Shown here: in pieces, positions 188 to 17,754 of the stretch | How positions within the stretch are numbered: the stretch's first letter is position 1 | Layout: each line of letters starts with the position of its first letter | DNA from: Candidatus Woesearchaeota archaeon CG10_big_fil_rev_8_21_14_0_10_37_12 | GTDB taxonomy: Archaea; Nanobdellota; Nanobdellia; Woesearchaeales; ARS49 | Assembly (NCBI GenBank): GCA_002762795.1 | Contig: PCYA01000012.1 | Span: 121,934 to 165,315, forward strand | Reading direction: 5' to 3' | Length of the DNA stretch: 43,382 nucleotides | Notes under the pieces: generated by a model | Databases searched by the model: none | What the model was told of the DNA's origin: nothing | What the model saw: the letters and a program-made list of their open reading frames with translations, nothing else | Position numbers and translations under genes: made by a program

Positions 188-1087
188 ATGAAACGTAAAA
201 TAATCAAACAAGGAATAGCAACACTCACAATATCCTTACCTGCAAAATGGACAAAACAATTCAAACTCAACGCAGGCGATGAAGTAGAACTCAGTGAGCA
301 AGGAAAAAACCTAGTTGTAAGCACAGGACAAACTGCAAGACCAGTCAGGGAAACTATTGATTTAAACCAAGCAAAAGGAATGCCAAGACTCGTTACAACC
401 ATGAAATACATCAAAGGATGTGACGAAATTAATGCAAAAATATGCAACAGAGAACAAGCACAACAAGTACAAGAAAGAGTAAGAGCATTACAAGGACTAG
501 AAATAGTAGAACAAACAAAAAATGAGTTATTGATTAAAGACATCACAGAACAAGCAAACGTTCAACTAGACCCCTTAATTAGAAGAGTCTTTCACATGCT
601 CAATACCCTCGGACAAGAATCCTTAACAGCATTCAAACACAAAGAAACAGATGTATCATATCTTGAAGACTTAGAACAAAGCATTAACAGATTTACACAC
701 TTATGTTTACGAACAATTAACAAACAAGGAATGGACAACATATCAAAAACAACAGCAACATACACCATTTGCTTCTTCCTCGAAGCAATTGCAGACGAAT
801 TTAAAGAAGTGCTGCAGTTTACCCGTATTAACAAACTGCAATTATCCAACGCATCTTTAGAAATATACAGCGACTTGCTTTATCATCTCAAACAATTCGA
901 AGAACTATTCTATGATTTTAATTTAGAGAAAGCGAATACAATGGCAAAAACATACGACAAAATATTACATAAAATAAAAACAAACCTAACCAAAAAAACA
1001 CCAAAAGACACTGTTGTATTAATGCACTTCAAAAACATTCTAGAATTCTTGATCTGGGCAATGAATCAAAAACTTGTAAGCGGCTAG
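188..1087 (+). CDS. AbrB-PhoU family regulator (copy 1)
   Basis: The first about 45 residues form an AbrB/SpoVT-type swapped-hairpin DNA-binding domain (pattern KIIKQG...TISLPAKW...LNAGDEVEL). The rest, from about residue 110, is all-helical and matches the PhoU-like domain that archaea commonly fuse to AbrB. Such proteins are annotated as phosphate-uptake or general regulators, but no phosphate transporter is nearby. It is closely paralogous to the protein at 8980-9885 along its full length (both contain IEQTKN, KDIT/KDVT and LxxILRRVF-type blocks). The ATG at 188 is where alignment with the paralogue begins. It faces the large kinase-like membrane protein at 1166-3529, the same arrangement as the second copy. 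Confidence 0.8.
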   Translation: MKRKIIKQGIATLTISLPAKWTKQFKLNAGDEVELSEQGKNLVVSTGQTARPVRETIDLNQAKGMPRLVTTMKYIKGCDEINAKICNREQAQQVQERVRALQGLEIVEQTKNELLIKDITEQANVQLDPLIRRVFHMLNTLGQESLTAFKHKETDVSYLEDLEQSINRFTHLCLRTINKQGMDNISKTTATYTICFFLEAIADEFKEVLQFTRINKLQLSNASLEIYSDLLYHLKQFEELFYDFNLEKANTMAKTYDKILHKIKTNLTKKTPKDTVVLMHFKNILEFLIWAMNQKLVSG

Positions 1088-1158
1088 TGGTAGACCGTAG
1101 TAGGTAAGAAGTCAGAGATATTAAGTAAGAAGTAAAGAGTGGAAGATTAGAGTAATAA
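1088..1158. repeat. purine-rich degenerate repeat between convergent genes
   Basis: The spacer consists of degenerate units of the type GTAAGAAGT/AAGAGT, with no ORF. It starts with TAGTGGTA at the stop codon, as does the spacer after the second AbrB-PhoU gene (9883-9935). Confidence 0.4.
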
Positions 1159-1165
1159 CGAACTT

Positions 1166-3529
1166 TTATTTAATTCCAAGATACGTTGTTTCAGGTGGAA
1201 CACTTTGTTTTTCAGGTTCTCTTGTCCATCTTGCTTCTCTCTCCACAATCACAACTTTTACTTCTTTCAAATCAGCAAAATCAATACCTCGAATAATTCC
1301 TCTTGTTTCATCACAATCATTTGTAAACTCAAAACCACGATCAGTCCAAACACGATGACAAGGTATGCCAGTCATATCATCATAATAAATACCGCGCAAC
1401 ACATCATTCGCAAAAATTTCGCCCATTGAAAACAAATCTTCGTTTGAGTCGCCTTTTCTAGCATAAAATGCAATAAGCGCATCCTTCAATGCAAGACCAT
1501 CTAAAACAGCATCAACATTTACAGCATATCTAAGTTCAGAACCTTTACCAATACGACCAGTAATTTCAGGATTTTCTGAGTAAGAATACAAATACCTTAC
1601 AAGCTCCTGAACCTCTGAAAGACGAGACTCATCAAGAACTCTATAACCGGCTCTGAACTGATCCCTAAAACTCCCAAGCAATTCAACACCTTGCTCTAAA
1701 TTCTCATGCATATCAACAGAAACAAACCTTCCAAAACGACCACCAATATCTCCCATTTCAAAATAATTCACATCTTTATACAATGGACAATTATTTTCAC
1801 TACTACTCATACCATAATTTCTATTAACCTGGAACACTCTCCTTACAAAGTTATCAGTAAATCCAAATTTCTTAGTAATTTCATCAACAAACGGATCATC
1901 AGCTGGAAGCAATCTATTCGGTCCAGTACCACCATACGCAGTATAATACACCTTCTCACTACCAAATGGTTTGCCAGCATGATAATTCTGATGCGTATTA
2001 ATCGCAGTTATAGCCATACTAAAATTCTCACCAATTCTGTTACAATAATATTCATACTCATCTGATTTTTCCTTACTCTGAATACGATCTTCTAACCTTC
2101 TTACCTTCTCTGCATCAGCACCAAACTGAACAGGAATTTTCTCAACAGCTCTTGCAAAATAATTCCTTACTCTTTGCACGTTATCAGTTGCAGCAACAGC
2201 AACAGTAGCAACTGCAACAAGACCAGCAGCAACAGCAGGCAAAATCCATCTTCTTTTGTGAGCAGTAATTTCAGCAGGTCTCAAGTGAGCTCTAAGCTTT
2301 GCAAGCTCATCATCAACAGACAATGCGGCAATTGCAGCTTCTTCCAAAGAAGGAACATCAACACTACTACTCATTTGCAAATCAACATCGTATTCTTCCC
2401 GCAGCTTATGATATGTGTTATTATCTAACTCCATCATGCCTTTGCTTGTAAAATAAGAACTGTACGCCTGAACAATATCGGCATCAATTACTCCCTGTTC
2501 GGAAACGCGCTGTAACAAACGCAATCCTTTATTGTACGAAACATTTGCCAAATGATTGCCATCTTCAGTTCCCAAATGTTTCACATGACGCGCAGCACTA
2601 AAAACTCTTTTACGAACTTCATTTAACCAGAAACGATGCCTTGCATCATTTTCTGAAACGCCATAACGTGATTGCAGCTCAACAACTTTCTGCATAACCT
2701 GTTCTTCTTCATCACGATTTAATCTTGCTTTTGAAACTAATTTTCCAACACCAAGCTCAACATATCCATTTTCAATAGTTTCCAAATCAGCAAACTCAAT
2801 TTTACCATCAGCATGAATTGCGACATTTCCAGGAAGTAAATCGCTATAGATAACCCGCTTTTGCCCACTATATAATTCATTAAAAACAGGAGCAACCGCT
2901 CCAACAAGTTCAGCTCCATTCGCATTCAACATGTTTTGCAACGCTATTACAGGATTGCATAATGCAGGAAACTCTACTTTTTTTTCTGTCAGCTTATCAG
3001 ACAAATCAAAATATGCTTCAATCACTCTATTAAGCAAGGAAATTTTTCCTTCAGAATCAAGCACAGGAATAAGCGTATCAATCCATCGTCCATTAATAAC
3101 AGGAATAATAACTGTTTGCTCACTATCACTTTTGAACTCAAGTGCAGAAACCATATGCTCAAGTGAACTGCCTCGTAATGCTTCAGCAACTCTCTCCTGA
3201 TTTTTTACTGTATTATCATATGATTTTTTATCACCAAATCTTTTCACAAAATGAGTAATTGTAGACTCTCCTTTCGTATCAAGACGAACTTCTGCGCGCG
3301 CAACATAACCGCCAGTTCTTGTATGTTTTGTTGGCTGTTCAATTGGTTCACAGTGAATTGTTAATGCATTTGTTCCCGCGCGCTCCAACGCAGCATTCAT
3401 TTGAGTTACCACAGCAGGAGCAAGCTTCCCAGTAACTGCAAGTGATTCAAGCTGAGGAAGAATAACTCTTTCTAAATATTTTGACCAATCATTGCCAAGT
3501 AAGGTTTGGAGGTTTAGATTAACACTCAT
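1166..3529 (-). CDS. membrane-anchored protein with APH/choline-kinase-like fold (copy 1)
   Basis: Residues are counted from the ATG at 3529 (787 aa), chosen because GGAGGT lies 6 nt before it. The N-terminal half resembles aminoglycoside-phosphotransferase/choline-kinase folds: a candidate ATP-binding lysine at K96 (FVKRF), the catalytic-loop motif YSDLLPGN (D230, N235) where HGDxxxxN is usual, and the metal-binding FADLE (D248). One hydrophobic helix (about 427-448, flanked by HKRR) anchors it, leaving about 340 C-terminal residues on the other side of the membrane. That C-terminal region is not recognised. The His-to-Tyr change in the catalytic loop makes activity uncertain. It is convergent with the AbrB-PhoU gene and is translationally coupled to the small AbrB-like gene just upstream. 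The protein at 9940-12021 has the same architecture. Confidence 0.6.
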   Translation of the reverse strand: MSVNLNLQTLLGNDWSKYLERVILPQLESLAVTGKLAPAVVTQMNAALERAGTNALTIHCEPIEQPTKHTRTGGYVARAEVRLDTKGESTITHFVKRFGDKKSYDNTVKNQERVAEALRGSSLEHMVSALEFKSDSEQTVIIPVINGRWIDTLIPVLDSEGKISLLNRVIEAYFDLSDKLTEKKVEFPALCNPVIALQNMLNANGAELVGAVAPVFNELYSGQKRVIYSDLLPGNVAIHADGKIEFADLETIENGYVELGVGKLVSKARLNRDEEEQVMQKVVELQSRYGVSENDARHRFWLNEVRKRVFSAARHVKHLGTEDGNHLANVSYNKGLRLLQRVSEQGVIDADIVQAYSSYFTSKGMMELDNNTYHKLREEYDVDLQMSSSVDVPSLEEAAIAALSVDDELAKLRAHLRPAEITAHKRRWILPAVAAGLVAVATVAVAATDNVQRVRNYFARAVEKIPVQFGADAEKVRRLEDRIQSKEKSDEYEYYCNRIGENFSMAITAINTHQNYHAGKPFGSEKVYYTAYGGTGPNRLLPADDPFVDEITKKFGFTDNFVRRVFQVNRNYGMSSSENNCPLYKDVNYFEMGDIGGRFGRFVSVDMHENLEQGVELLGSFRDQFRAGYRVLDESRLSEVQELVRYLYSYSENPEITGRIGKGSELRYAVNVDAVLDGLALKDALIAFYARKGDSNEDLFSMGEIFANDVLRGIYYDDMTGIPCHRVWTDRGFEFTNDCDETRGIIRGIDFADLKEVKVVIVEREARWTREPEKQSVPPETTYLGIK

Positions 3530-3671
3530 TTGGAACCTCCAAAATATCAATAGTTAATTTAACCACTGTTTTTGGCTTCAAATGTTTTTCAAGAATTCTC
3601 GGAACTACAATAATTGCCTGAGAACCATGCTTTGCTATCTTCTTTGTAATCACAAACTGCTTCACTGTCAT
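3519..3671 (-). CDS. 50-residue AbrB-like small protein, coupled to the kinase-like gene
   Basis: A complete 50-codon ORF reads MTVKQFVITKKIAKHGSQAI and continues with IPR-like and LKPKTVV segments, typical of a single AbrB/MazE swapped-hairpin DNA-binding domain. A TATA box (TATTTATA on the plus strand, 3689-3696) lies about 20-27 nt before its ATG, so the message is probably leaderless. Its last codons contain the GGAGGT ribosome-binding site of the next gene, and its stop codon lies 11 nt inside that gene, so translation of the two is probably coupled. It may act as an autoregulator. A short ORF in the same position precedes the lipoprotein at 7481-8593. Confidence 0.6.
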   Translation of the reverse strand: MTVKQFVITKKIAKHGSQAIIVVPRILEKHLKPKTVVKLTIDILEVPNEC

Positions 3672-3924: not shown

Positions 3925-3961
3925 AAATATAAATACTAGATGTGCTTAGTAATATTTACTA
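3925..3961 (+). promoter_or_regulatory. promoter and candidate operator of the first VapBC pair
   Basis: AAATATAAATAC (3926-3937) is a TATA box about 30 nt before the ATG at 3961, so the mRNA is probably leaderless. A perfect palindrome, TAGTAA-TAT-TTACTA (3947-3961), covers the presumed transcription start. Autorepression by the AbrB antitoxin is the expected mode for VapBC and fits this position. Confidence 0.55.
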
Positions 3962-4203
3962 TGGGAATATCGAAAATAACACGAAATTATCAAGTAACAT
4001 TACCAAAAGATATCAGAGAAATCAAAGACTTAAACGTAGGAGATAAAGTATTGTTCGTCTTAGAAGGAGATAAAATTGACTTAGTTAAAATGAGCAAAGA
4101 CATTATAACAAAAACAGCCGGTTTGTGGGCAGACTTAGCAGAAACTGGAGTTGAATATGAACAAAGAATGCGCAAGGGGTGGAAAAAACGCCAATTGTTA
4201 TAG
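3961..4203 (+). CDS. vapB: AbrB-type antitoxin (VapB-like)
   Basis: This 80-residue protein starts at the second ATG (MGISKITRNYQVTLPKDIRE), which suits the TATA spacing. The N-terminal domain is a classic AbrB/SpoVT swapped hairpin (NYQVTLPKDIR...LNVGDKVLF). The C-terminal tail (LWADLAETGVEYEQRMRKGW) would bind the toxin. The stop lies 25 nt inside the PIN-domain gene, so they form one coupled operon. It probably represses its own promoter through the palindrome at 3947-3961. Confidence 0.8.
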   Translation: MGISKITRNYQVTLPKDIREIKDLNVGDKVLFVLEGDKIDLVKMSKDIITKTAGLWADLAETGVEYEQRMRKGWKKRQLL

Positions 4204-4565
4204 ACACGAATATTTTCATAGATCACTTGCGAAATTACGCCCCTTCAGTACAATTCTTTAACTCTCTTGCAGAACGCGAAGACATTTATTTTTCAGCAAT
4301 TACAGAAACTGAACTTATTGCAGGAAAACACAACAATGACAAACAAAAAAGAGAACAACTCTTACATTTTCTTCACAGATGGAACAAAGTAATTCTTACA
4401 AACCAACTCGCATTACGTGCAGGAGACATCAGCAGAGAATATAACTTGGATGTTCCTGACGCAATCATTGCAGCAACAGCCACATCTCAAAATGCAACAC
4501 TACTAACAAAAAACATTAAAGATTTCAGAAAAGTTAAATCACTCACAGTGCAAGAACCTTACTAA
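4179..4565 (+). CDS. vapC: PIN-domain ribonuclease toxin (VapC-like)
   Basis: This 128-residue PIN-domain protein carries the acidic residues of the family: IDTNIF near the N-terminus (first Asp), the TETEL glutamate near residue 47, and DVPDAIIAATA with the C-terminal Asp, followed by LLTKNIKDF. VapC toxins are Mg-dependent RNases that cut tRNA or rRNA and are held inactive by the cognate VapB. The start is a GTG at 4179, preceded by AAGGGG in the overlapping antitoxin gene. Confidence 0.85.
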   Translation: MEKTPIVIDTNIFIDHLRNYAPSVQFFNSLAEREDIYFSAITETELIAGKHNNDKQKREQLLHFLHRWNKVILTNQLALRAGDISREYNLDVPDAIIAATATSQNATLLTKNIKDFRKVKSLTVQEPY

Positions 4566-6250: not shown

Positions 6251-6334
6251 TTAATTCAACTCCTTAAGAATTGCGTTGTAGAGTACTCTAGCGTTTAGAT
6301 GTTTGTTTAGTTCATTTCTGTCTTCCTCACTCAT
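6251..6334 (-). CDS. possible 27-residue small ORF
   Basis: This short charged ORF begins MSEEDRNELNKHLN and ends ILKELN, with GGTGG 5 nt before its ATG. Its end faintly resembles the C-terminus of the 275-aa protein (KAKVLEVLN), so it may be a residue of a duplicated gene. Its last codons include the AAGGAG before the next small ORF. Confidence 0.25.
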   Translation of the reverse strand: MSEEDRNELNKHLNARVLYNAILKELN

Positions 6335-6371
6335 TTCGCCACCAAAAAAATTTGAAAATAAAAAAATAAAA

Positions 6372-7478
6372 TCACGTCAACGTTACTTGTTTTCCGTCTT
6401 TAATCGTACGAACAACTGCGCCGCTTTTGACAATACCATCAGAGCCAACAGTCAATGGACCAAGAGCTCCGGGAAAATCCTTAATTTGCTTTAACTGCGC
6501 AGCAACCTGTTCAGTTGTAGGAATTGTTTTACCATCTCCTGCATCTTCAAACGCCTGCACAAGCAAATTAAACACGTCATACGCATTACCAGATGCAAAC
6601 ATAGAATCGTCGCCAAACTTTGTCTTGTACTTACTGACAAATGTTTCAGAAGGATCAGCAGCATTCACATACCAATATCCCTCAAACTGCTCAGCCTTAT
6701 CAGACAATTCAAACGCTTCAATGCTTGTCAACTCTTCTTTAATTCCCAACTCCTTCATCTGCTTATGCAAATTATCAATCTCAGGAGAGAACGCCAACAA
6801 CATGTACATATCTGGCTTAGCCTTTTTTGCCTTGATGATTATTGTTCGGAAATCAGTCGTACCAAACTCAAACGTCTCATCAAAGACAACATCAACAGAA
6901 GTTCCCGTTGTAGCTTCTTTTACTGCATCCATAATAGCCACTTCACCTTGTTGTTGCACACCAAGAATAGCTAATTTCTTAACGCCACGCTTTTCTGCCT
7001 CATTTACCCAAGCCTTAGCTTCCTCTTCAGGAGAAGTCCAATGAATAAAACTATTCTTATTCAGAGTTGCAATATTCGCATCAGAAGCAATACCAAAATG
7101 CACAACATTATTCGCGCTCGCAATAGGCGCAGCAGCATTACCAGTACCAGAAGAAATACTTGTCACAACCTGCACACCATCAATACTAATTAATTTATTG
7201 ACAGCAGTAGTTGTTGTCTTAGGATCAAGTTTATCATCCTCAAAAATAAGCTCATAATTATACTTTGTACTCTTTGCTTTGGTTTCTTCCAGCGCCATAG
7301 ACATTCCATTTTTATTTGCAATACCAATAAATGCTGTATCTCCAGTCAATGGAATGGATGCTCCAATCTTTATCGTTTGTTTTGTCACTTCTGTAGCAAC
7401 TTTGTCAGCAGGATTCCCGCCGTTACAAGCTGCCAAAACAAACAAACTTAAGATAGCTAACACTAATATTTTTTTCAT
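6372..7478 (-). CDS. LivK-like substrate-binding lipoprotein
   Basis: This 368-residue type 1 periplasmic binding protein begins MKKILVLAILSLFVLAAC, a signal peptide with a lipobox (LAAC). It should be a membrane-anchored extracellular binding protein of the Leu/Ile/Val-amide family (IKIGASIPLTGD...; FEDDKLDPKTT; AYDVFNLLVQAF). The ligand cannot be read from the sequence. It lacks the two-cysteine pair seen in the neighbouring paralogue (EDDKC...GPLC). It is the second gene of a tandem pair: GGAGGAATAA at the end of the upstream gene supplies its ribosome-binding site. The two signal peptides differ at one position up to the lipobox cysteine, indicating local duplication. No Liv permease or ATPase is present in the window. 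Confidence 0.8.
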   Translation of the reverse strand: MKKILVLAILSLFVLAACNGGNPADKVATEVTKQTIKIGASIPLTGDTAFIGIANKNGMSMALEETKAKSTKYNYELIFEDDKLDPKTTTTAVNKLISIDGVQVVTSISSGTGNAAAPIASANNVVHFGIASDANIATLNKNSFIHWTSPEEEAKAWVNEAEKRGVKKLAILGVQQQGEVAIMDAVKEATTGTSVDVVFDETFEFGTTDFRTIIIKAKKAKPDMYMLLAFSPEIDNLHKQMKELGIKEELTSIEAFELSDKAEQFEGYWYVNAADPSETFVSKYKTKFGDDSMFASGNAYDVFNLLVQAFEDAGDGKTIPTTEQVAAQLKQIKDFPGALGPLTVGSDGIVKSGAVVRTIKDGKQVTLT

Positions 7479-7480
7479 TT

Positions 7481-8593
7481 TTATTCCTCCGCAAGAACCC
7501 AGTGACCGTCTTTTGCAACTTTCACATCATAATTTGCAGACTTCAAATCACCAATTTCATCAAACTCAATAACAGAAGATGAAACACCGGCAAATTTTGT
7601 ACGCGCAAGTGCATTTCTAACAGCTGTTTTGTCAGTACCAACATCCTTCATAACCTGCACAAACAAGTTAACAGCATCATAGCCAAGAGGAGTAAGCGTA
7701 TTAATTGTGCCATCAGGAACTTCCTGCTTTAGTTTTTGAACAAATTCTTCAGGACTGTTGAATCGCCCAGCAATGAACATCACACCTTCAGTTTCCTTTT
7801 TTCCAAAGAACTCTTCAGCTTCAAAAGCATCACCGCCAATAATTGGAAGATCAATGCCAAGCTCTCTGACCTGCTTTACAAAAACCAACCCAACAGCAGG
7901 ATACATAGGCGCAACAATAATTTCAGCACCAGAAGCCTTTAGTTTTGTCACAACAGTTCTCGCATCAGATTCTTCCTGAGCTAAACTTTCATCAAAAACA
8001 ATTGTTCCACCAAGCTCTTCAAAACGAGCTTTGAATGTATCATGGATGCCCTGACCCCAATCATTCTTCACATACACAATAGCTACTTTTTTCTTTTGCA
8101 TATTGTTTATCACATACTCTGCCAAGAACTTACCTGCAAAAGAATCAGAAGGATAAATACGGAACAAATAATCACCCAAACTTGTCAAATGAGGAGCAGA
8201 CCCGTAAAAAATTGTAGGAACACCATTCTGCTGTGCAATAGGCAAGCCCGGACCAGCAGCAGACGAACAAAGCGGACCAATCAACGCATCAACATTATCA
8301 GCAGTTACAAGTTTTGTAACAGTTGTAACACCATCTCTTGAACATTTATCATCCTCATAAATAATCTGCAATGGTCTGCCATTAATTCCACCAGCAGCAT
8401 TCACTTCCTTAACAGCCAACTTTATGCCCGAAACAACACCTGCACCAATACTTGCTGCTTCACCACTTAACGGCAAAGAAACGCCGATTTTAACTGGATT
8501 GTCTTCAGTAAGTTTTGTACTTGTCGTATCAGCCTGCCCGCAAGCAATTAATACAAACAAACTCAATATTGCTAACACTAATATTTTTTTCAT
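7481..8593 (-). CDS. LivK-like substrate-binding lipoprotein
   Basis: This 370-residue lipoprotein (signal MKKILVLAILSLFVLIAC) has a full LivK-type fold: VKIGVSLPLSGEAASIGAG, IIYEDDKCSRDGVTT, ALIGPLCSSAAG, NDWGQGIHDTF and GYDAVNLFVQ. The two cysteines after DDK and GPL are a family-typical disulphide. It is the first protein-sized gene of the tandem pair. A 29-codon ORF with a strong ribosome-binding site precedes it and overlaps its start (ATGA). A 128-nt structured leader for the AbrB-PhoU gene is transcribed away on the other strand, so the two are divergently arranged. Confidence 0.85.
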   Translation of the reverse strand: MKKILVLAILSLFVLIACGQADTTSTKLTEDNPVKIGVSLPLSGEAASIGAGVVSGIKLAVKEVNAAGGINGRPLQIIYEDDKCSRDGVTTVTKLVTADNVDALIGPLCSSAAGPGLPIAQQNGVPTIFYGSAPHLTSLGDYLFRIYPSDSFAGKFLAEYVINNMQKKKVAIVYVKNDWGQGIHDTFKARFEELGGTIVFDESLAQEESDARTVVTKLKASGAEIIVAPMYPAVGLVFVKQVRELGIDLPIIGGDAFEAEEFFGKKETEGVMFIAGRFNSPEEFVQKLKQEVPDGTINTLTPLGYDAVNLFVQVMKDVGTDKTAVRNALARTKFAGVSSSVIEFDEIGDLKSANYDVKVAKDGHWVLAEE

Positions 8594-8679
8594 TTTTCAG
8601 AACCTCCCAAATCAAGAATTACCTTGCCTTCCGGCAAATAGGTAATTGTTCTTTTTGCAATCACTAAATGTCTTAACAT
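8590..8679 (-). CDS. 29-residue leader ORF coupled to the lipoprotein gene
   Basis: The ORF starts at an ATG with GGAGGG 5 nt before it and ends in an ATGA overlap with the lipoprotein start. Its tail (GGAGGTTC) contains the ribosome-binding site of that gene. The peptide (MLRHLVIAKRTITYLPEGKV then ILDLGGSEK) weakly resembles an AbrB-like domain with the middle missing, compared with the 50-codon ORF at 3519-3671, which has the same position and the same GGAGGTTC ending. It may be a translational-coupling leader or a shrunken regulator. Confidence 0.5.
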   Translation of the reverse strand: MLRHLVIAKRTITYLPEGKVILDLGGSEK

Positions 8680-8735
8680 TGTAACCCTCCAATGGTGAAA
8701 ATTAAGAAACAACGGTACATATAACTTTCAGCAAT

Positions 8736-8783: not shown

Positions 8784-8911
8784 GCACTTCTTTACAGAGG
8801 GGAAGCACTCCTTGCGCTAAAGTAGTTAAGCAATACCCCTCTGTATAACTCCCCATTGACCAAAAGAGTAGAAAGCGCAAAAAAATCAGGGCTTTCCAGT
8901 TTTAGAAGTGC
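8784..8911 (+). ncRNA. multi-branched structured leader (aptamer-like)
   Basis: A closing stem GCACTTCT/AGAAGTGC (8784-8791 with 8904-8911, 8 bp) encloses a long hairpin ACAGAGGGG/CCCCTCTGT (8794-8802 with 8836-8844, 9 bp) extended by TTGC/GCAA (8812-8815 with 8830-8833), a weak ACTC/GAGT stem (8848-8851 with 8866-8869), and GAAAGC/GCTTTC (8871-8876 with 8891-8896). It thus resembles a three- or four-way junction. It is followed by a hairpin ending just before the start codon of the AbrB-PhoU gene. I recognise no known riboswitch class. A free-standing RNA is the alternative. Confidence 0.55.
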
Positions 8912-9885: not shown

Positions 9886-9939
9886 CTAGTGGTAAAGAGT
9901 AAAGGGTTTAGAGTATAGAGTTAAGAGTTCAGAGAAAAA

Positions 9940-12021
9940 TTAATCAGAAGGTTTTGCTGCTTTGTTTAAGTCACCAATAATCGTGCTATAACCACCAGGA
10001 GCAATTTCAGTACTAATTTGTTTTGCACGAAGTTCTGCCTCTAATTTTTCATGATGTGCGTCTTCCACAGCTCTTATTTCTGCTTTAATTCTCCTTCTTC
10101 TTGTTTCCACAAAAGCAGAGTCACGTTCTCCAAGCCAAACAAAACTATCTATGTATCCACCACTAATGGCGTCTCTAATTCTCCAATTAACATCATCTTT
10201 GATATCTTTCCAAGCAGCACTTTTTTTAGCGTAAATAACTGGATACACAGACTCATAATCTAAATATGCAGCACATGCAGTGTCTTTGTCTTCAAAATGT
10301 CTAACCAATTCCTGTAGTTCCTTAACCTCTATAGCATCAGTAGTGTTGCTTCCGTATTTATTTGACCTATACAATTCAACAATACGCAATCGGTTATTGA
10401 ACTCTTTATAATATTCAGTTTTAACTACTTCATCTTGTAAATTAGCCACTTTTTTCTGATACCACACCAAACCACCAGTAGCCCCCGCAACTAAAGTTGT
10501 TGCTAACGCACCAAGACCAACTTTCTTTGCTAAATTCCAACGAGACCTCCTTCTATAATCAGACAAGAGTTCTTTTAATTTCCCTTCAGCAAGCACAGGA
10601 AAATCAGGCTTTAAAACACTAAAACTACGACCTTCAGGATGATATGCTGCAAACGTTTCACGCATTTGATCATCATCCAATCGACCTTCAAACAAAGTAT
10701 CAAGATGACTATCCACTGCACCTGAAAGATCTTTTCCCTGACGAGCTAATTCTTTTCTAAACAAAGTATAGAAATACTTGCTCAGCAAAATAGACTCGCC
10801 TTGCTTTGTTATTGTCGGAGAACTTGCCCACGCTTTATATCTTCCAGCCCACAACAAATATTGCTCAGCTTTCAACGAGGCAAAATGATTACGCATTTCA
10901 ACTTCATTGAATTCACAATCAATACGAGACATTAAACCAGAAATATCATCTAATAATTGCGATTCAACTGAACGGCCACTGCTAAGCAGAAGAGCAGCTC
11001 CATCATGATCATACAAACCAGATTTTACCAAGCGCTGAACTGTTGTAGCCTCAGCAAAATCTGAACACGCCCACTCAAAATCAACATGAGTGTACGTATG
11101 ATTTACAGATGAACCAAGCAATCTTGCTACAGTTTCATCATAAGTTGTTTTACCAACCATCGTATTTGTCGGCAAACCATCGCCCTGACTAAAAGATTGC
11201 TCACCGTTCAAACCAAGAACATCTGCTATCTCTTTTGCAACAGAAGAACTGCCGTTTCTCGCAAACACTTTTTCTGCAAGCAACGCATCATGATCTCTAG
11301 ACAAAAAGGTTCTTCTCCACTTTCTGCCTTGTTTAGATGCTAAAAATTGCTTTGCATAAAATGCAGACGCAACATCAAATAAAGCAGTTGCACGTAAATG
11401 TTTATATTTTTCATCAACAGAAGCGTCAGCAAATACTTCATGTAAATCAATTGTATTAATAAATTGGTTTGCAATCAAGTTTTTCTTATCGTACACAGGA
11501 GTAACAGGGCGGAACTTATCAAGAATATTGATTAGTTCAGGGTCAGAAGCAGTATCGTGCATATATGCAGTTAACTCGCTCATAAACTGTTGGCCAGAAG
11601 CAGCTTTTTGACGGCGTTCATCATCTTCAAAAAACCTATAAAATGTTTTAAGTGTCTTATTACCTAATGATTTGTATGCGACAACCAAAAAACCTCTGTC
11701 CCAAATAGCAGCGCCACTTACTTTGTCAGGATTAACCTCAGAGAAAGCAGGTGCAGTGTTAAACTCTGCTAAGTCTGCTAAAGAAATTCCTGAAAGCTTG
11801 CCATCTTTAACATCTCTTCTGAGTGCTTGTAATGATGCTTCATTAATAACGCCTCTTGAACTTCCAGGCAAAACTTCCAAAACGTGCCTTGCAGATACTA
11901 TTTCTTGATCAGTAGAAAATTGTCCTTTGAGAATTGCTTGATCTTCTTCAAAGCGTTGCCTAAGTACAGCTGGATCTGCAGCCAGAATTTCGTCCAATTT
12001 AGCATCTATTGATAGCACCAT
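9940..12021 (-). CDS. membrane-anchored protein with APH/choline-kinase-like fold (copy 2)
   Basis: This is a 693-residue protein from the ATG at 12021, preferred because a TATA box (TTATATACTT, minus strand, about 12048-12058) lies about 31 nt upstream. It has FSQGDGLPTN (D281, N286) and THVDFEWA (D314) at the right order and spacing for the catalytic loop and metal-binding aspartate of APH-fold phosphotransferases, with Gln replacing the usual His. A single membrane helix (about 499-520) follows, then about 170 charged, helical residues. The C-terminal region is shorter than in copy 1 and not recognised. Overall similarity to copy 1 is low, but the architecture and convergent position are the same. 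Confidence 0.6.
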   Translation of the reverse strand: MVLSIDAKLDEILAADPAVLRQRFEEDQAILKGQFSTDQEIVSARHVLEVLPGSSRGVINEASLQALRRDVKDGKLSGISLADLAEFNTAPAFSEVNPDKVSGAAIWDRGFLVVAYKSLGNKTLKTFYRFFEDDERRQKAASGQQFMSELTAYMHDTASDPELINILDKFRPVTPVYDKKNLIANQFINTIDLHEVFADASVDEKYKHLRATALFDVASAFYAKQFLASKQGRKWRRTFLSRDHDALLAEKVFARNGSSSVAKEIADVLGLNGEQSFSQGDGLPTNTMVGKTTYDETVARLLGSSVNHTYTHVDFEWACSDFAEATTVQRLVKSGLYDHDGAALLLSSGRSVESQLLDDISGLMSRIDCEFNEVEMRNHFASLKAEQYLLWAGRYKAWASSPTITKQGESILLSKYFYTLFRKELARQGKDLSGAVDSHLDTLFEGRLDDDQMRETFAAYHPEGRSFSVLKPDFPVLAEGKLKELLSDYRRRSRWNLAKKVGLGALATTLVAGATGGLVWYQKKVANLQDEVVKTEYYKEFNNRLRIVELYRSNKYGSNTTDAIEVKELQELVRHFEDKDTACAAYLDYESVYPVIYAKKSAAWKDIKDDVNWRIRDAISGGYIDSFVWLGERDSAFVETRRRRIKAEIRAVEDAHHEKLEAELRAKQISTEIAPGGYSTIIGDLNKAAKPSD

Positions 12022-12118: not shown

Positions 12119-12646
12119 ATGTTTAAAGAATTAAACGATTTGTCTGTTTTCATCAATGAACCAGACAGAGAACTATCCATAAGAGAATATGCAAGATTGC
12201 GAAGGATATCGCCTGCAACAGCATTAATGAGACTGCACATTTTTGAAACTCAAGGATTACTGGTTTCAAAAACACTACGAAACAACAAACTTTACTCTGC
12301 AAATGAACAAAGTCAAAAGTACAAACTAACAAAAAAATACTACAGTATTCTTAGCATAATCAACACAGAACTACTCCAACATTTAATAGACTCGTTCAGA
12401 GAACCGCTTGCAATATATCTTTTTGGCTCTTATGCAAAAGCAGAAAACAGACCAAACAGCGATATAGACATATTCATATTAACAAGAACAAAAACAACTA
12501 TTGACATTTCACAATTTGAAAAAAACATCAACGCAAAAATACAACTTTTCGTGTACACAGAAGAAGAACTCAAAAAAGCTAATAAGCATTTACTTAATAA
12601 TATTATAAACGGAATAAAACTTTATGGATTCTGGGAGGCATTCTAA
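12119..12646 (+). CDS. mntA: MNT-type nucleotidyltransferase with N-terminal helix-turn-helix (antitoxin)
   Basis: Residues 1 to about 75 form a winged helix-turn-helix (IREYARLRRISPATALMRLHIFE). From about residue 95 there is a minimal nucleotidyltransferase domain with GSYAKAENRPNSDIDIFIL, containing the GSxxxGxxxxxSDxD-type signature with both catalytic aspartates. In MNT-HEPN toxin-antitoxin pairs the MNT protein AMPylates and silences the HEPN RNase. The stop codon overlaps the HEPN start (TAATG). Confidence 0.8.
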   Translation: MFKELNDLSVFINEPDRELSIREYARLRRISPATALMRLHIFETQGLLVSKTLRNNKLYSANEQSQKYKLTKKYYSILSIINTELLQHLIDSFREPLAIYLFGSYAKAENRPNSDIDIFILTRTKTTIDISQFEKNINAKIQLFVYTEEELKKANKHLLNNIINGIKLYGFWEAF

Positions 12647-13065
12647 TGTTTGAGAACTTTATCAAAACAGGGAAAGTAAGAAAATCAGAAGCTGATAAAG
12701 CTTTAGCTAAATCACTCATTGAAATGTCTCAAATTCATCTTGACTTTGCCTCATCCATACAAATAACTGAAAAAAACGCATCCCCTTTGCTAGTAAATTA
12801 TTATGAATCACTACGAGAAATCTGCGAAGCAATATGCTCCTTGCAAGGTTATAAAGTGTACTCGCATGAAGCATTTACTGCATACTTAAACGAGCAATTG
12901 AAAGAAGAACGATTAGCAGAAAAATTTGACAGATTAAGAAAATTAAGAAACGGAATAAATTACTACGGCAAACAAGTAAGCAAAGAAGAAACACAAACAT
13001 CAGCAGAAGAAATAAAACAAATAATAAAAGAACTCAAAGAAAAATATCTGAAAAATTTATTCTAG
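12646..13065 (+). CDS. HEPN-domain protein (toxin partner)
   Basis: This is a 139-residue all-helical protein downstream of MNT. The conserved HEPN C-terminal region is visible as FDRLRKLRNGINYYGKQV. The usual RNase motif is R-x4-6-H; here the Arg-Asn is present but an Asn (GIN) stands where His is expected, so RNase activity is doubtful or relies on the variant motif. Its 3' end overlaps the convergent lipoprotein gene by 9 nt. Confidence 0.7.
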   Translation: MFENFIKTGKVRKSEADKALAKSLIEMSQIHLDFASSIQITEKNASPLLVNYYESLREICEAICSLQGYKVYSHEAFTAYLNEQLKEERLAEKFDRLRKLRNGINYYGKQVSKEETQTSAEEIKQIIKELKEKYLKNLF

Positions 13066-14115
13066 AACTACAAACTCTCCATTCTTCACAGTCTTCAAAA
13101 ATAATTCCCGATCAACATCTCCATTCTCATCAAAGGAAAATGTGCCAGAAACGCCACGGTAGTCTTTTGTTTTGTAAAGCTCACTCTTTATACAGCCAGT
13201 ATCCTCGCCGCAAATACCTACCATTTTGTCTATCAACACTAATGAATCGTACGCGTTGACAATCAAAAAAGTATCAGCATCATTGCCATGCTTTTCATTA
13301 AAACGAACCTGAAATTCTTTTGCAGATTCCATTCCCTTGTCGAATGGCGATGTATAAATAATTCCTTCAGCTGCTTCACCAGCAATATCAAGAAACGTCT
13401 GATCCTCCATGCCAACAGTGCTCAATAATTGCGCTTTAACTCCTTGCTCCCTCATCAGTTTTACAATACGACCAATATCCTCTGCAAAACCAGTAATGTA
13501 CACTGCATCAGGAGCTGTAGCTTTAATTTTTGCAATATGCGTTCTTACATCCTGTTCGTCTTTCTCGTACGCTTCGTAAACAAGAATTTCTCCTTTGAAC
13601 AACTCTTTGAACACATCAGTATACGTTAAACCTGATTCCTGATTTACTGGCATTAATGCAACAGTCCAATTATTCACCTCAACAAGTTCTGCAATCTTTC
13701 TTCCATGAATTTTACCTGTCTCACGAACTCTGAAAACATAATCGCCCGCTTCAGTAACCTTTTCAGCAGAAGAAGTTGGACCAAGAATAATAACTTTCTG
13801 CTCATTTGCCAACGGAGCAACTGTTAATAGATTACTCGATAATACAGGACCTACTATGATTTTGACATCATCCAACTCTGTCAATTTTTTGAATGCAGTT
13901 AATGCTCCCTTTGGATCACTTCGCGAATCTTCAATGATTATTTCTATGTGACTGGAATCTTCCAACGCTAAGTTATATCCGTTCAACAAATTTTCCCCAG
14001 CATACGACTGCCCACCTGTTAACGGAAGAATAATACCAACTTTAACCTTCTCTGAGCTTGTCGCACAACTTGCGAGCAAGAAAGCTAACACTACTATGAA
14101 TATTATTTTTTTCAT
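13057..14115 (-). CDS. LivK-like substrate-binding lipoprotein
   Basis: From the ATG at 14115 this is a 352-residue lipoprotein (MKKIIFIVVLAFLLASC lipobox) with the type 1 binding-protein fold (VGIILPLTGGQSYAG, IIVGPVLSSN, AYDSLVLIDKM). The reading frame is open upstream to another ATG at 14286 that has GGTGG 7 nt before it, but the added 57 codons are the two palindromic repeats, so the signal-peptide start is used here. The ATG at 14115 has no ribosome-binding site of its own. It is divergent from the TrmB-family gene at 14357-15094, which may control it. Confidence 0.8.
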   Translation of the reverse strand: MKKIIFIVVLAFLLASCATSSEKVKVGIILPLTGGQSYAGENLLNGYNLALEDSSHIEIIIEDSRSDPKGALTAFKKLTELDDVKIIVGPVLSSNLLTVAPLANEQKVIILGPTSSAEKVTEAGDYVFRVRETGKIHGRKIAELVEVNNWTVALMPVNQESGLTYTDVFKELFKGEILVYEAYEKDEQDVRTHIAKIKATAPDAVYITGFAEDIGRIVKLMREQGVKAQLLSTVGMEDQTFLDIAGEAAEGIIYTSPFDKGMESAKEFQVRFNEKHGNDADTFLIVNAYDSLVLIDKMVGICGEDTGCIKSELYKTKDYRGVSGTFSFDENGDVDRELFLKTVKNGEFVVLE

Positions 14116-14119
14116 GCTA

Positions 14120-14181
14120 AAAAATTTCGCCAGGAATTTTTTAGTGGGGTTTGACACCCCACCATTCATGGCGAAATTTTT
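14120..14181. repeat. palindromic repeat I in the lipoprotein leader
   Basis: AAAAATTTCGCCA (14120-14132) pairs with TGGCGAAATTTTT (14169-14181), 13 bp, and encloses GTGGGGT-TTGAC-ACCCCAC (14144-14162). It ends 4 nt from the lipoprotein start codon. Confidence 0.7.
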
Positions 14182-14189
14182 GGCATCCT

Positions 14190-14284
14190 GAAAATTCTGC
14201 ATATGTGCGAGCCTCAAACCTCGCCCTAACAGGACGCTCGCTTTGCTCGCTTGGGGTTTGATGTGAGGCTCGCGCAGAATTTTC
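14190..14284. repeat. palindromic repeat II in the lipoprotein leader
   Basis: GAAAATTCTGC/GCAGAATTTTC (14190-14200 with 14274-14284) and GCGAGCCTCA/TGAGGCTCGC (14207-14216 with 14264-14273) form an almost continuous stem of over 20 bp. The GC-rich loop contains direct GCTCGC copies. With repeat I it resembles a REP/MITE-like composite element placed between an ATG with ribosome-binding site (14286) and the coding region. Confidence 0.7.
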
Positions 14285-14320
14285 ATGATTTTACCACCAA
14301 AAAAATAAAAGATTAGAGAA

Positions 14321-14356
14321 ATATTTAAATACTTGCCGTCAAAAATTTACGACAAG
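14321..14356. promoter_or_regulatory. shared TATA box and candidate operator of the TrmB-like gene
   Basis: ATTTAAAT (14323-14330) is a symmetrical TATA box about 30 nt before the TrmB start at 14357, and can serve the minus-strand lipoprotein as well. CTTGCCGT and ACGACAAG (14332-14339 and 14349-14356) form an inverted repeat with one mismatched pair across a 9-nt spacer, ending at the ATG. This is a reasonable site for autorepression. Confidence 0.4.
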
Positions 14357-15094
14357 ATGATAGAGGAATTGAAGACTTTCGGATTATCAGAAAAAGAAGC
14401 AAAAACATACCTTGCAGGACTCGAATTAGGAGTAGCAACTGCAAATGATATTTCTCTCAAAAGTAAACTACCAAGAACACTCGCTTACGACATTCTTGAA
14501 AGACTCATACACACAGGATTAATGTCATACTCAATTAAAGAAGGAAAAAAATATTTCACAGCAGCAGATCCAAACGAGCTCAGAAGAATCCTCAAAGAGA
14601 AAGACAATGCGATCCAGTACATTCTGCCAAAACTTCAAACACTCTACAAAATGAAAGGTCAAAAACGACCAAAAATAGACATCTTCGAAGGCAAAAAAGG
14701 ACTCAAAATGCTACTCAACGAAATACTCGAAACAAAAACAAAAACGTTGTTAGTATATGGAAGCACAAGAGCAAGCTCAAAATTACTGCCTGCATTCATG
14801 GAAGACTGGCACACAAGAAGAATACAGAAAAAAATATTCATCAAAGCTATTTACAACAATACTCCAGAGGCACGAGAACGTGTAAAAAGATTACCACAAG
14901 CATTCAAATATGGAGATTACAGATTCATGCCAATCACTGCAGAATCACCAACAGCAACAGCAATCTATGGAGATACGATATTCTTATTATCCTGGACACA
15001 AGAAGAACCATTCGCAGTTCGCATACACAGCAAAGAAATGGCAGAAAACAACAAACATTATTTTGAAGCGCTTTGGAATTTTGCAAAAAAATAA
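14357..15094 (+). CDS. TrmB-family transcriptional regulator
   Basis: This 245-residue protein starts at ATG 14357 (MIEELKTFGLSEKEAKTYLA), which suits the TATA spacing; an in-frame TTG at 14333 would add 8 residues. The N-terminal winged helix is the TrmB type (GLSEKEAKTYLAGLELG...SKLPRTLAYDILERL), followed by an effector-like domain. TrmB proteins sense sugars or other metabolites and act as repressors or activators. Adjacent divergent placement suggests it controls the LivK-like lipoprotein at 13057-14115. Confidence 0.8.
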   Translation: MIEELKTFGLSEKEAKTYLAGLELGVATANDISLKSKLPRTLAYDILERLIHTGLMSYSIKEGKKYFTAADPNELRRILKEKDNAIQYILPKLQTLYKMKGQKRPKIDIFEGKKGLKMLLNEILETKTKTLLVYGSTRASSKLLPAFMEDWHTRRIQKKIFIKAIYNNTPEARERVKRLPQAFKYGDYRFMPITAESPTATAIYGDTIFLLSWTQEEPFAVRIHSKEMAENNKHYFEALWNFAKK

Positions 15095-15140
15095 ACTCTA
15101 AAACAAGAAAATAAAATAAGAAAAAACAAAAAAATAATGC

Positions 15141-16376
15141 TTATTCAGCATCTGTTGAGGTCATAGAATCTGCACTTACTTCCATTTCTTCAACATCAGA
15201 ACCATATGCACTCCACTTTCCATCAACAATCTGGAACAAATCATAAGGCTTACTGACTTCACCATCAGTATCAAACGCATACGTACCAGAAGCACCAACA
15301 TACTCGCCCATAGTATACAAGAAATCCTTCATTGCAGTACTTGTACAATCAGTTTCAGCACACGCTTTTGCCAAAATCATAACAACATCATACGCTTCAG
15401 GAGTGTATGCAGTGTATTCTTTGTTGAACTTCGCCTGGAATGCATTTGCAAAATTTTCCAATTCTTGAGATTTTGGAACGCCAGGGATAGTTACAATCAT
15501 ATTGTACTCAGCACCCTGAACAGCAGACATAATCGAATCATCCTTTAATGCATCAGCAGCAATAATCGTCTTATCAAAACCAGCTTCTTTCAATTGTTTT
15601 AACAAAACTGCACCATCTGCGGGAAATGCTGCAAGATAAATTACATCAACTTGAGCTGCTTTTACTTTTGCAACAATTGTTCTAAAATCAGTCTCGTCAG
15701 GAGCATACGCTTCAGCAACACGCACATCTAAACCAATTTCTTTTGCTTTTGTTGTAAACACATCATGCAAGCCCTGACCCCAATCATTCTGAATATACAC
15801 AACTACAGCTTTTTCAGCACCCAAAGTATCTTTTGCTAATTCTGCACCAAGAACACCTTGTCCAGAATCAGAAGGTACAACTCTGAAAATAAAATCACCA
15901 GCATCCTTAATACTAGGAGCAGTTGCAGAATATGAAACAGTCAACACACCGTTTTCTTCAACAAGAGGAGCAGCAGCTAACATTGTAGGAGAACACATAG
16001 GACCAATAATAGCAGTCACTTTATCAACACTAACAAGCTTCTGTGCAGCAGTTGCACCATTTGCAGCCTCACATTTATCATCTTCATAAACAACTTTCAT
16101 TGTTTTGCCAGGAATCAACTGCTTATTATTAACTTCTTCAACAGCCAACTCAACAGACTCCTTGATAGGCGTTCCTAATGTAGCAATATTCCCAGTCAAA
16201 GCACCCATCCAACCAAACGTTACTTCTTCAAGTTCTGTGTCTCCTTCCATAGGAGCAGCTTCTTCAGGTGCAACATCTTCCATCTTACCTTCAGGAGCAA
16301 CAGGTGTTCCTGCTTGACCACACGCAGCAATCAAAAGCAACAAAACACCTAAAATTGCAAATAATATTTTTCTCAT
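15141..16376 (-). CDS. LivK-like substrate-binding lipoprotein
   Basis: This 411-residue lipoprotein (MRKILFAILGVLLLLIAAC) has an acidic, Pro/Glu-rich linker after the lipobox, then the type 1 binding fold (TFGWMGALTGNIA, VVYEDDKCEAANG, IIGPMCSPT, NDWGQGLHDVF, EAYDVVMILAKAC). Extra cysteine pairs (CAETDC) suggest a second disulphide. The C-terminus is acidic (MEVSADSMTSTDAE). It is the second gene of a tandem pair, its ribosome-binding site (GGAGG) lying in the last codons of the gene upstream. Confidence 0.85.
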   Translation of the reverse strand: MRKILFAILGVLLLLIAACGQAGTPVAPEGKMEDVAPEEAAPMEGDTELEEVTFGWMGALTGNIATLGTPIKESVELAVEEVNNKQLIPGKTMKVVYEDDKCEAANGATAAQKLVSVDKVTAIIGPMCSPTMLAAAPLVEENGVLTVSYSATAPSIKDAGDFIFRVVPSDSGQGVLGAELAKDTLGAEKAVVVYIQNDWGQGLHDVFTTKAKEIGLDVRVAEAYAPDETDFRTIVAKVKAAQVDVIYLAAFPADGAVLLKQLKEAGFDKTIIAADALKDDSIMSAVQGAEYNMIVTIPGVPKSQELENFANAFQAKFNKEYTAYTPEAYDVVMILAKACAETDCTSTAMKDFLYTMGEYVGASGTYAFDTDGEVSKPYDLFQIVDGKWSAYGSDVEEMEVSADSMTSTDAE

Positions 16377-16378
16377 GT

Positions 16379-17635
16379 TTATTCCTCCAAATCTTCAACT
16401 AATTCTGGTTCACCAGCTTTCAAAACATAAATAGCATGTTCAACACCAACAGCCTCACCATCTTCATCAAACTCGACATTACCTGTAATTCCGTTGTATG
16501 CGTCCATGTTGTACAACCAATCACGAATACAAATACTATCTTCACCGCACGCTTTTAACGCATTCGCAATAATCATTGTACGATCATATGCCAAAGCAAC
16601 AGCACTGTTTAATACAGGAACACTGCCGAACTTTTCTTCATATCTATCAATTAATGCTTTCCCGTTATCACTGAACTTTGGATCAAGCAAATCAGCCCAA
16701 ATAAGACCTTCAGCTTTCTCACTAAGAACTTCTGTTACAACCCTGCTACCACCAAAATAAGCAGCATACATCTGCACTTCCAGTCCAAGATCAAACGCTT
16801 GCTTCATAACCTGAGCAAGACCAGTATCTGCCTGCGTATTAACAAACAACGCATCAGGACTCACGGCCTTGATCTTTGTTAACTGAGTCCTATAATCCTT
16901 ATTATCAGGCTCAAAACTTTCACTAGCAACTATTTCTAAACCGAGCTCACCAGCTCTCTTAGTGAACTCATCACGCAAACCCTGAGCATAATCAGTATTC
17001 TCAGTAATAATAGCAACTTTCTTGCTCTTACTATTCACAGCATCAGCAAGACGCTTGCCAAGAACAGCATCACTAGGAATACTTCTAAACACAAAATCAC
17101 CAGCATCCTTAATCTTAGAATTTGATGCATAAGAAGTCAACAAAATAACTTGCGCTTCATTAGTAATAGGCGCTAAAGACAATGTTGCACCACTACAACT
17201 AGAGCCAACAACCACTTTAACTTTATCAACATTCACAAGCTTATTCGCAACTGTTGTAGCATCTTTACCATTACATTTATCATCCTCATAAATGAACTCT
17301 AACTGTTTGCCATTAATCCAACCAGCTTTTTCAATATCTTCCAAAGCCAGCAAGGTTCCCCTTTGCTCATCAATACCATAAGTAGCAGCATCACCAGTTA
17401 ACGGCGCAGAAAAACCAATGCGAATAACATCCTCAGAAGTTCCCATGTCGCTTGTTTCTTCAGCCATATCAGCTTCAGAATCAGTTGCTTCTTCAGCCAT
17501 ATTTTCTGTCGCGTCTGCTTCATCAACCATTTCTGGTTCAGCAACATCAGCAGGTTCTTCAACAACAGCTTCTGGTGCAGAACACGCAACTAACAATACA
17601 AACAAACAAAGAATGCTTATCAAAATTTTATTCAT
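16379..17635 (-). CDS. LivK-like substrate-binding lipoprotein
   Basis: The protein (418 aa) starts at ATG 17635 (MNKILISILCLFVLLVAC), with GGAGGGAGAG just before it and a TATA box (CTTTATATATACT, minus strand) about 45-50 nt upstream. After the lipobox comes a long acidic Glu/Ala/Asp linker of about 60 residues, then the LivK fold (IRIGFSAPLTGDAATYG, YEDDKCNGKDATT, VVVGSSCSGAT, LAYDRTMIIANALKAC). The linker probably holds the binding domain away from the membrane. It is the first gene of the pair with 15141-16376. Confidence 0.85.
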   Translation of the reverse strand: MNKILISILCLFVLLVACSAPEAVVEEPADVAEPEMVDEADATENMAEEATDSEADMAEETSDMGTSEDVIRIGFSAPLTGDAATYGIDEQRGTLLALEDIEKAGWINGKQLEFIYEDDKCNGKDATTVANKLVNVDKVKVVVGSSCSGATLSLAPITNEAQVILLTSYASNSKIKDAGDFVFRSIPSDAVLGKRLADAVNSKSKKVAIITENTDYAQGLRDEFTKRAGELGLEIVASESFEPDNKDYRTQLTKIKAVSPDALFVNTQADTGLAQVMKQAFDLGLEVQMYAAYFGGSRVVTEVLSEKAEGLIWADLLDPKFSDNGKALIDRYEEKFGSVPVLNSAVALAYDRTMIIANALKACGEDSICIRDWLYNMDAYNGITGNVEFDEDGEAVGVEHAIYVLKAGEPELVEDLEE

Positions 17636-17754
17636 ATCTCTCCCTCCATCCAAATTAGTACTTTCTCTATATTTAGTATATATAAAGTTTGCCCGAGGTT
17701 TATAAATGATAAACCCCACAATCTTTTTAAACACACGATTGCCAGAGCAGACCT

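Follow-up and report, generated by a model that had tools for sequence, protein, structure and literature searches.

In Escherichia coli, PhoU and the transporter PstSCAB together pass the state of the transporter to the membrane kinase PhoR (PMC4423584), which provides a functional precedent for a PhoU-containing regulator located next to transporter and membrane-kinase genes. Here we describe two gene pairs of a PhoU-containing regulator and a putative membrane kinase in the archaeon Candidatus Woesearchaeota archaeon CG10_big_fil_rev_8_21_14_0_10_37_12 (genome of 1.35 Mb, 99% complete). They lie on a stretch of 43,382 nucleotides (contig PCYA01000012.1, positions 121,934 to 165,315), hereafter the window. 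In each pair, a gene for an AbrB-PhoU regulator on the + strand and a gene for a kinase-fold membrane protein on the - strand face each other tail to tail: P0001 (188..1087, 299 aa) and P0002 (1166..3529, 787 aa) form pair 1, P0003 (8980..9885, 301 aa) and P0004 (9940..12021, 693 aa) form pair 2. A first reading of the DNA, made from its letters without database searches (hereafter the sequence-only reading), had described a duplicated convergent module, and all four open reading frames (ORFs) were recovered at its coordinates and in the same orientation.

The likeness to Pst-PhoU-PhoR consists of a PhoU domain, an ABC transporter with a binding protein and a membrane kinase, and the pairs could by analogy work like it. 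The kinase, however, has the APH fold rather than that of a histidine kinase (no Pfam histidine-kinase domain was found in P0002 or P0004), the PhoU domain is fused to AbrB and the transporter is of the Liv type. Neighbouring transporter genes, where there are any, encode Peripla_BP_6 and LivFGMH-like proteins and not the phosphate-specific PstSCAB. With the APH, choline, ethanolamine and methylthioribose kinases (Pfam PF01636 and relatives) the proteins share the fold of the P0004 model, the DxxxxN catalytic loop and the metal-binding Asp. In contrast to that superfamily, P0002 and P0004 lack a Pfam match, carry a predicted membrane helix and a long C-terminal region, and are encoded in a conserved pair with a regulator; in the P0004 subfamily the beta-3 Lys appears to be lost. 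HipBA and other kinase toxin-antitoxin modules likewise have a small DNA-binding ORF that overlaps the kinase gene, but the small proteins described below are single-domain AbrB- or ribbon-helix-helix (RHH)-type proteins, the kinase is large and membrane-anchored, and a third gene is convergent. Archaeal SpoVT/AbrB proteins with PhoU, e.g. TK2245 of Thermococcus kodakarensis, have the same domain architecture as P0001 and P0003; TK2245 is listed in a table of chromosome-associated proteins (PMC7325993), which gives no more than its name. A literature search that largely did not cover subscription journals and preprints returned no paper on this combination and none naming both Woesearchaeota and AbrB.

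Conservation of the convergent pair

The relatives of P0004 that were found first (one each in G029 and G037, two in G038) each have an AbrB-PhoU gene facing them, and a scan of contigs gave three loci in two metagenome-assembled genomes, one of Woesearchaeota and one of Nanoarchaeota. Kinase-profile searches, one of the order and one of the phylum, gave seven strong relatives outside the original set (L123-L127, L138 and L139), and in 7/7 the kinase gene and an AbrB-PhoU gene converge, either directly or with a single gene between them. These relatives span different genera, and L138 and L139 come from another order of the same class. The search for the paired genes across archaeal genomes, which the sequence-only reading had proposed, finds the convergent pairing conserved in other genomes, including two from another order; the pairing is not unique to this genome, nor is the fold of the P0004 model unlike phosphotransferases.

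Other loci depart from this arrangement. The regulator gene is in tandem with the kinase gene in L042, L134 and L136; L129 and L133 are weak kinase-profile matches that are convergent with a regulator, and around the weak matches L128, L130, L131, L132, L135 and L137 a regulator is absent. L038 is truncated where its contig ends, and L041 holds a fragment: at 6269-7366 of this locus (genome G074) an RHH-type ORF and a 172-aa N-terminal kinase fragment lie beside Liv and binding-protein genes with no regulator nearby, which looks like a decayed module.

A second set was sampled by regulator and comprises 60 AbrB-PhoU loci from the order together with the earlier loci. The downstream neighbour is convergent in 55 of 75 of these loci compared to 215 of 610 background genes (Fisher 4e-10), and the genes downstream encode large proteins (median 546 vs 230 aa). 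As the discovery loci are part of this set, the loci selected by kinase provide the cleaner test. An APH Pfam domain occurs in 8/63 neighbours and in no more than one of 63 controls of matched size in a pooled scan, the latter bound following from the absence of APH among the control families listed with two or more members; 30/63 partners were also scanned individually, the remaining ones being known from the pooled scan alone. The distances among regulators correlate with those among kinases (Mantel r 0.45, p 2e-4, 19 pairs), a value that includes shared species history and could have its source in shared descent.

The AbrB-PhoU neighbours also include guanylate-kinase-like and TPR-APH proteins. 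L047, L048, L057, L059 and L079 hold a second family of large neighbours, in part with TPR and APH domains, and L063, L088 and L091 a third cluster, to which guanylate-kinase-like proteins belong. AbrB-PhoU may thus pair with several kinase types. Elsewhere in the genome of the window (L020, 7227-10188), a further AbrB-PhoU gene is faced by a HAD-like gene and the gene of a dark protein of 759 aa, in which a possible kinase-like motif was recognized by eye.

The kinase-fold membrane proteins

Scans of P0002 and P0004 against Pfam and NCBIfam gave no match, and a direct BLASTP comparison detected no similarity between the two. Clustering by phmmer with the proteins that face AbrB-PhoU genes elsewhere placed both in one family of ten, the two being linked by intermediates, L049 and L040 among them. 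In alignments of these ten members, nearly the only invariant residues are the Asp and Asn of the catalytic loop and the Asp that binds the metal, together with one Gly, one Glu and one Ala. The catalytic Asp, the loop Asn and the metal-binding Asp, noticed already in the sequence-only reading as retained in both window copies, are invariant across 18/18 members of the extended family. In P0002, with a kinase-like domain at approximately aa 60-320, the catalytic loop (YSDLLPGN) has its Asp230 to Asn235 codons at 2825..2842 (-) and the metal-binding Asp248 codon at 2786..2788 (-). In P0004, with a kinase domain at approximately aa 90-460, the family alignment places the loop (SQGDGLPTN; codons Asp281 to Asn286) at 11164..11181 (-).

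The usual His of the catalytic loop is replaced in both window copies by Tyr and Gln, respectively, as had been noticed before; this is no family trait, since His occupies the position in 12/18 members. At the beta-3 position, in an alignment of about 20% identity, ten members including P0002 have Lys and eight including P0004 have Arg, Ser or Asn. The residue appears to be kept in the P0002 subfamily and lost in P0004, so that the two window copies may not be biochemically equivalent.

Structure models of both proteins had been suggested as a check, and one was informative. The AlphaFold model of P0004 has a kinase core with predicted local distance difference test (pLDDT) values mostly of 80-94, and a Foldseek search with it returned 3csv as the top match (E 4.2e-5, prob 1.00), followed by choline, ethanolamine and methylthioribose kinases. 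As judged from this model, the N-terminal domain of P0004 has an APH/choline-kinase fold. The P0002 model (pLDDT 45) was too poor for a fold comparison, and the fold of P0002 consequently rests on family membership and the conserved residues. A sequence search of the PDB with the kinase profile gave weak CK2 matches near the catalytic loop (E approximately 0.01), which were not used for the family assignment.

One membrane helix is predicted directly after the kinase domain in P0002, P0004 and nearly all core members, where it forms the strongest hydrophobic stretch, in agreement with the single helix of the sequence-only reading. In P0002 it covers approximately aa 429-447 (2189..2245, -; hydropathy 2.36) and is followed by a C-terminal region of about 340 aa; in P0004 it covers approximately aa 501-519 (10465..10521, -; hydropathy 1.63) and is followed by about 170 aa. 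Most members have about 150-480 aa after the helix. Lys and Arg are more numerous on the N-terminal than on the C-terminal side of the helix in the core members that have it (4 vs 3 in P0002, 6 vs 3 in P0004), which predicts the kinase domain inside and the C-terminal region outside the cell.

The AbrB-PhoU regulators

At 31% identity (E 2e-51), P0001 and P0003 are homologues. Both have an N-terminal AbrB/MazE swapped-hairpin domain with Pfam PF04014 above the cutoff, and the C-terminal region affiliates with PhoU, as the profile of the regulator family matches the PhoU structures 4q25 (1.9e-8) and 2i0m (3.5e-5) in the PDB. The identity proposed from the letters alone is borne out by these matches. 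The ExxxD motif of PhoU repeat 2 is kept, with E/D at position 199 and D at position 203, each in 81 of 87 aligned sequences; repeat 1 mostly has E/DxxxN. AbrB-PhoU genes are present in 55/61 sampled genomes of the order, with 1-11 copies each, and some face unrelated genes, e.g. a phosphoenolpyruvate (PEP) synthase gene. The genome of the window encodes six paralogues, so that the two copies seen first, real as both pairs are, are part of a larger set.

The convergent genes are separated by purine-rich spacers (1088..1165 in pair 1; 9886..9939 in pair 2, starting with CTAGTGGTA). The 9-mer CTAGTGGTA occurs at 1084-1092 and 9886-9894 (2 observed, 0.16 expected), and did not recur at the corresponding place in relatives. 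The shared spacer start TAGTGGTA that had been pointed out is present in both pairs, in pair 1 overlapping the stop codon of P0001. As an operator, TAGTGGTA was rejected: the 9-mer is unconserved at that place, and an enrichment of AGTGGT in the intergenic DNA of the modules (12 vs 2.9 expected) is post hoc and weak.

Coupled small proteins and transporter genes

In about ten loci, i.e. about half, a small ORF of 43-65 aa lies immediately upstream of the kinase gene and overlaps its start; in the other half it is absent. The window has such an ORF at 3519..3671 (-, 50 aa), the end of which shares 11 bp with the start of P0002. It was missed in the sequence-only reading, whose pair was confirmed but whose two-gene module is thereby larger than proposed. 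These small proteins consist essentially of one domain, of AbrB type in the window, L015, L040, L123 and L126 (the coupled ORFs of L040, L123 and L126 being closely similar to that of the window) and of RHH type in L039, L041, L049, L127, L129 and L138. Pfam recognized RHH in L049, L129 (RHH_1 and VapB_antitoxin) and L138 and a weak AbrB/MazE match in L015; it gave no AbrB or RHH match in the remaining ORFs including that of the window, the type of which was called from mutual similarity and inspection. Scanning the loci with a profile of the small ORF gave clear matches upstream of kinase-family genes in 9/11 cases, L127 counted.

In pair 1 and the four relatives closest to it (L049, L123, L138 and L139), one or more genes for Peripla_BP lipoproteins are divergent from the AbrB-PhoU gene, the kinase gene being convergent with it, and four of these five loci also have Liv permease genes (LivMH). 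In the genome of the window, LivFGMH and binding-protein genes are found just left of the window, beyond a run of 28 N. L049, L123, L138 and L139 have an AT-rich upstream sequence in common that resembles archaeal promoter elements (B recognition element/TATA). Among P0004-type loci the divergent arrangement also occurs in L016 and L017, and further loci of this type have no binding-protein gene within reach. In pair 2, two Peripla_BP_6 substrate-binding lipoprotein genes (6372..8593, -; Pfam) are divergent from P0003 and are possibly its regulatory target or its ligand-side partner.

A proposed nutrient-sensing module and its alternatives

The interpretation that we put forward, at roughly even chances, is a conserved nutrient-sensing module in which a membrane kinase and an AbrB-PhoU regulator are tied to nutrient uptake. 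The APH/choline-kinase-like N-terminal domain would be cytoplasmic and, by a single helix, connected to a variable C-terminal domain predicted to be extracytoplasmic. The membrane protein would sense a nutrient directly or via the neighbouring substrate-binding lipoprotein, and the kinase would alter the activity of AbrB-PhoU by phosphorylation or through a phosphorylated product. AbrB-PhoU in turn would control the divergently transcribed binding-protein and transporter genes, and the small AbrB- or RHH-type protein, in the same operon as the kinase in about half of the loci, probably autoregulates that operon. We infer that ATP is used, as we infer the substrate, the signal and the direction of regulation. 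Of the kinase-regulator sensing system first suggested, the pairing, the APH-like fold of the P0004 model, the predicted helix and the AbrB-PhoU identity stand, and the module has grown. Only tentatively would we go further, and see in lipoprotein and Liv-type transporter, single-helix APH-superfamily receptor kinase and AbrB-PhoU one signalling chain of woesearchaea without histidine kinases; such a chain might, no less tentatively, be functionally like Pst-PhoU-PhoR, built from a different kinase and different DNA-binding parts.

Several observations weigh against a nutrient-sensing module. Enzymes with the APH/choline-kinase fold mostly phosphorylate small molecules. In P0004 and its nearest relatives the beta-3 Lys appears to be missing, and judging from this residue these proteins could be kinases of little or no activity. 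Four members are truncated or show no distinct helix behind the kinase domain (L042, L038, L086; weak in L129). Kinase relatives were found in only 25/353 genomes of the order (E<=1e-4), about a quarter of these being weak matches without an adjoining regulator. Among the other neighbours of AbrB-PhoU, unrelated or dark proteins are numerous, and partners outside the family with APH similarity by profile comparison number only about eight, vs one control. Binding-protein genes lie near 7/19 kinase-type regulators and 5/66 others, a count that does not yet include L138 and L139, and the transporter link hence belongs to part of the kinase family.

The main rival, rather unlikely in our estimate, is a metabolite kinase with its own regulator: a membrane-tethered APH-fold enzyme would phosphorylate an imported small molecule, following a LicA-like logic, and AbrB-PhoU would be a product- or phosphate-responsive transcription factor, with no protein being phosphorylated. 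The choline, ethanolamine, methylthioribose and aminoglycoside kinases among the best structural matches of P0004 agree with this, as do the LivFGMH and Peripla_BP genes that adjoin P0002-group loci and a PhoU domain with its ExxxD kept. It is hard to explain, however, why most members of such an enzyme family would carry one helix and then a C-terminal region of about 150-480 aa, and many P0004-type members have no transporter context.

A toxin-antitoxin-like module, with the small AbrB/RHH protein as antitoxin, the kinase as HipA-like toxin and AbrB-PhoU as an extra regulator, is improbable. The overlap of the small ORFs with the kinase start is like that of antitoxins with toxins, one of these ORFs has the VapB_antitoxin match mentioned above, and HipA is a toxin-antitoxin kinase (PMC2701414). 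Type II antitoxins are nonetheless described as two-domain proteins (PMC2701414), and proteins of 43-65 aa leave little or no space for a toxin-neutralising domain; an overlapping DNA-binding ORF is thus present in about half of the loci, and a toxin-binding domain is not. The size and predicted membrane anchor of the kinase, the loci without the small ORF and the transporter genes beside part of the family also argue against this explanation, and PADLOC gave no convincing match, with two borderline E-values (0.003 and 0.009). Least probable of all, functionally unrelated genes kept tail to tail by chance, antisense or shared-terminator effects would suit the abundance of AbrB-PhoU and its occasional unrelated partners such as PEP synthase, but are disfavoured by the retention of the pair in all seven newly found strong relatives from different genera and two orders, by the orientation bias and by the frequency of APH domains among the neighbours.

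Other features of the window

The window contains six Peripla_BP_6 genes in 43 kb (6372-8593, 13057-17734 and 34647-35756), more of them together with LivFGMH lying just left of it; for a genome of 1.35 Mb this number is a strong expansion. A short leader-like ORF at approximately 8589-8680 (-; MLRHLVIAKRTITYLPEGKVILDLGGSEK) overlaps the binding-protein gene at its start (8593) and may be what is left of a small AbrB-type ORF. Between this gene and P0003, a stretch at approximately 8795-8860 can form a hairpin (CAGAGGGG ... CCCCTCTG) and has no Rfam match; the Rfam scan near the module gave nothing beyond one chance match with an E-value of 0.96. Between the two modules, an AbrB antitoxin-like gene and, downstream of it, a PIN-domain gene (3940-4565, +) form an ordinary VapBC-type pair. 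Divergent from P0004, a Polbeta nucleotidyltransferase gene overlaps a gene with weak likeness to HEPN/HepT (12119-13065, +), an MNT-HEPN-like pair.

Implications

Nutrient sensing in the small-genome archaea of the DPANN group is largely open. If the proposed module is real, it would extend the APH-superfamily enzymes into transcriptional signalling and would provide a function for the AbrB-PhoU proteins, which are found in 55 of the 61 sampled genomes of the order.

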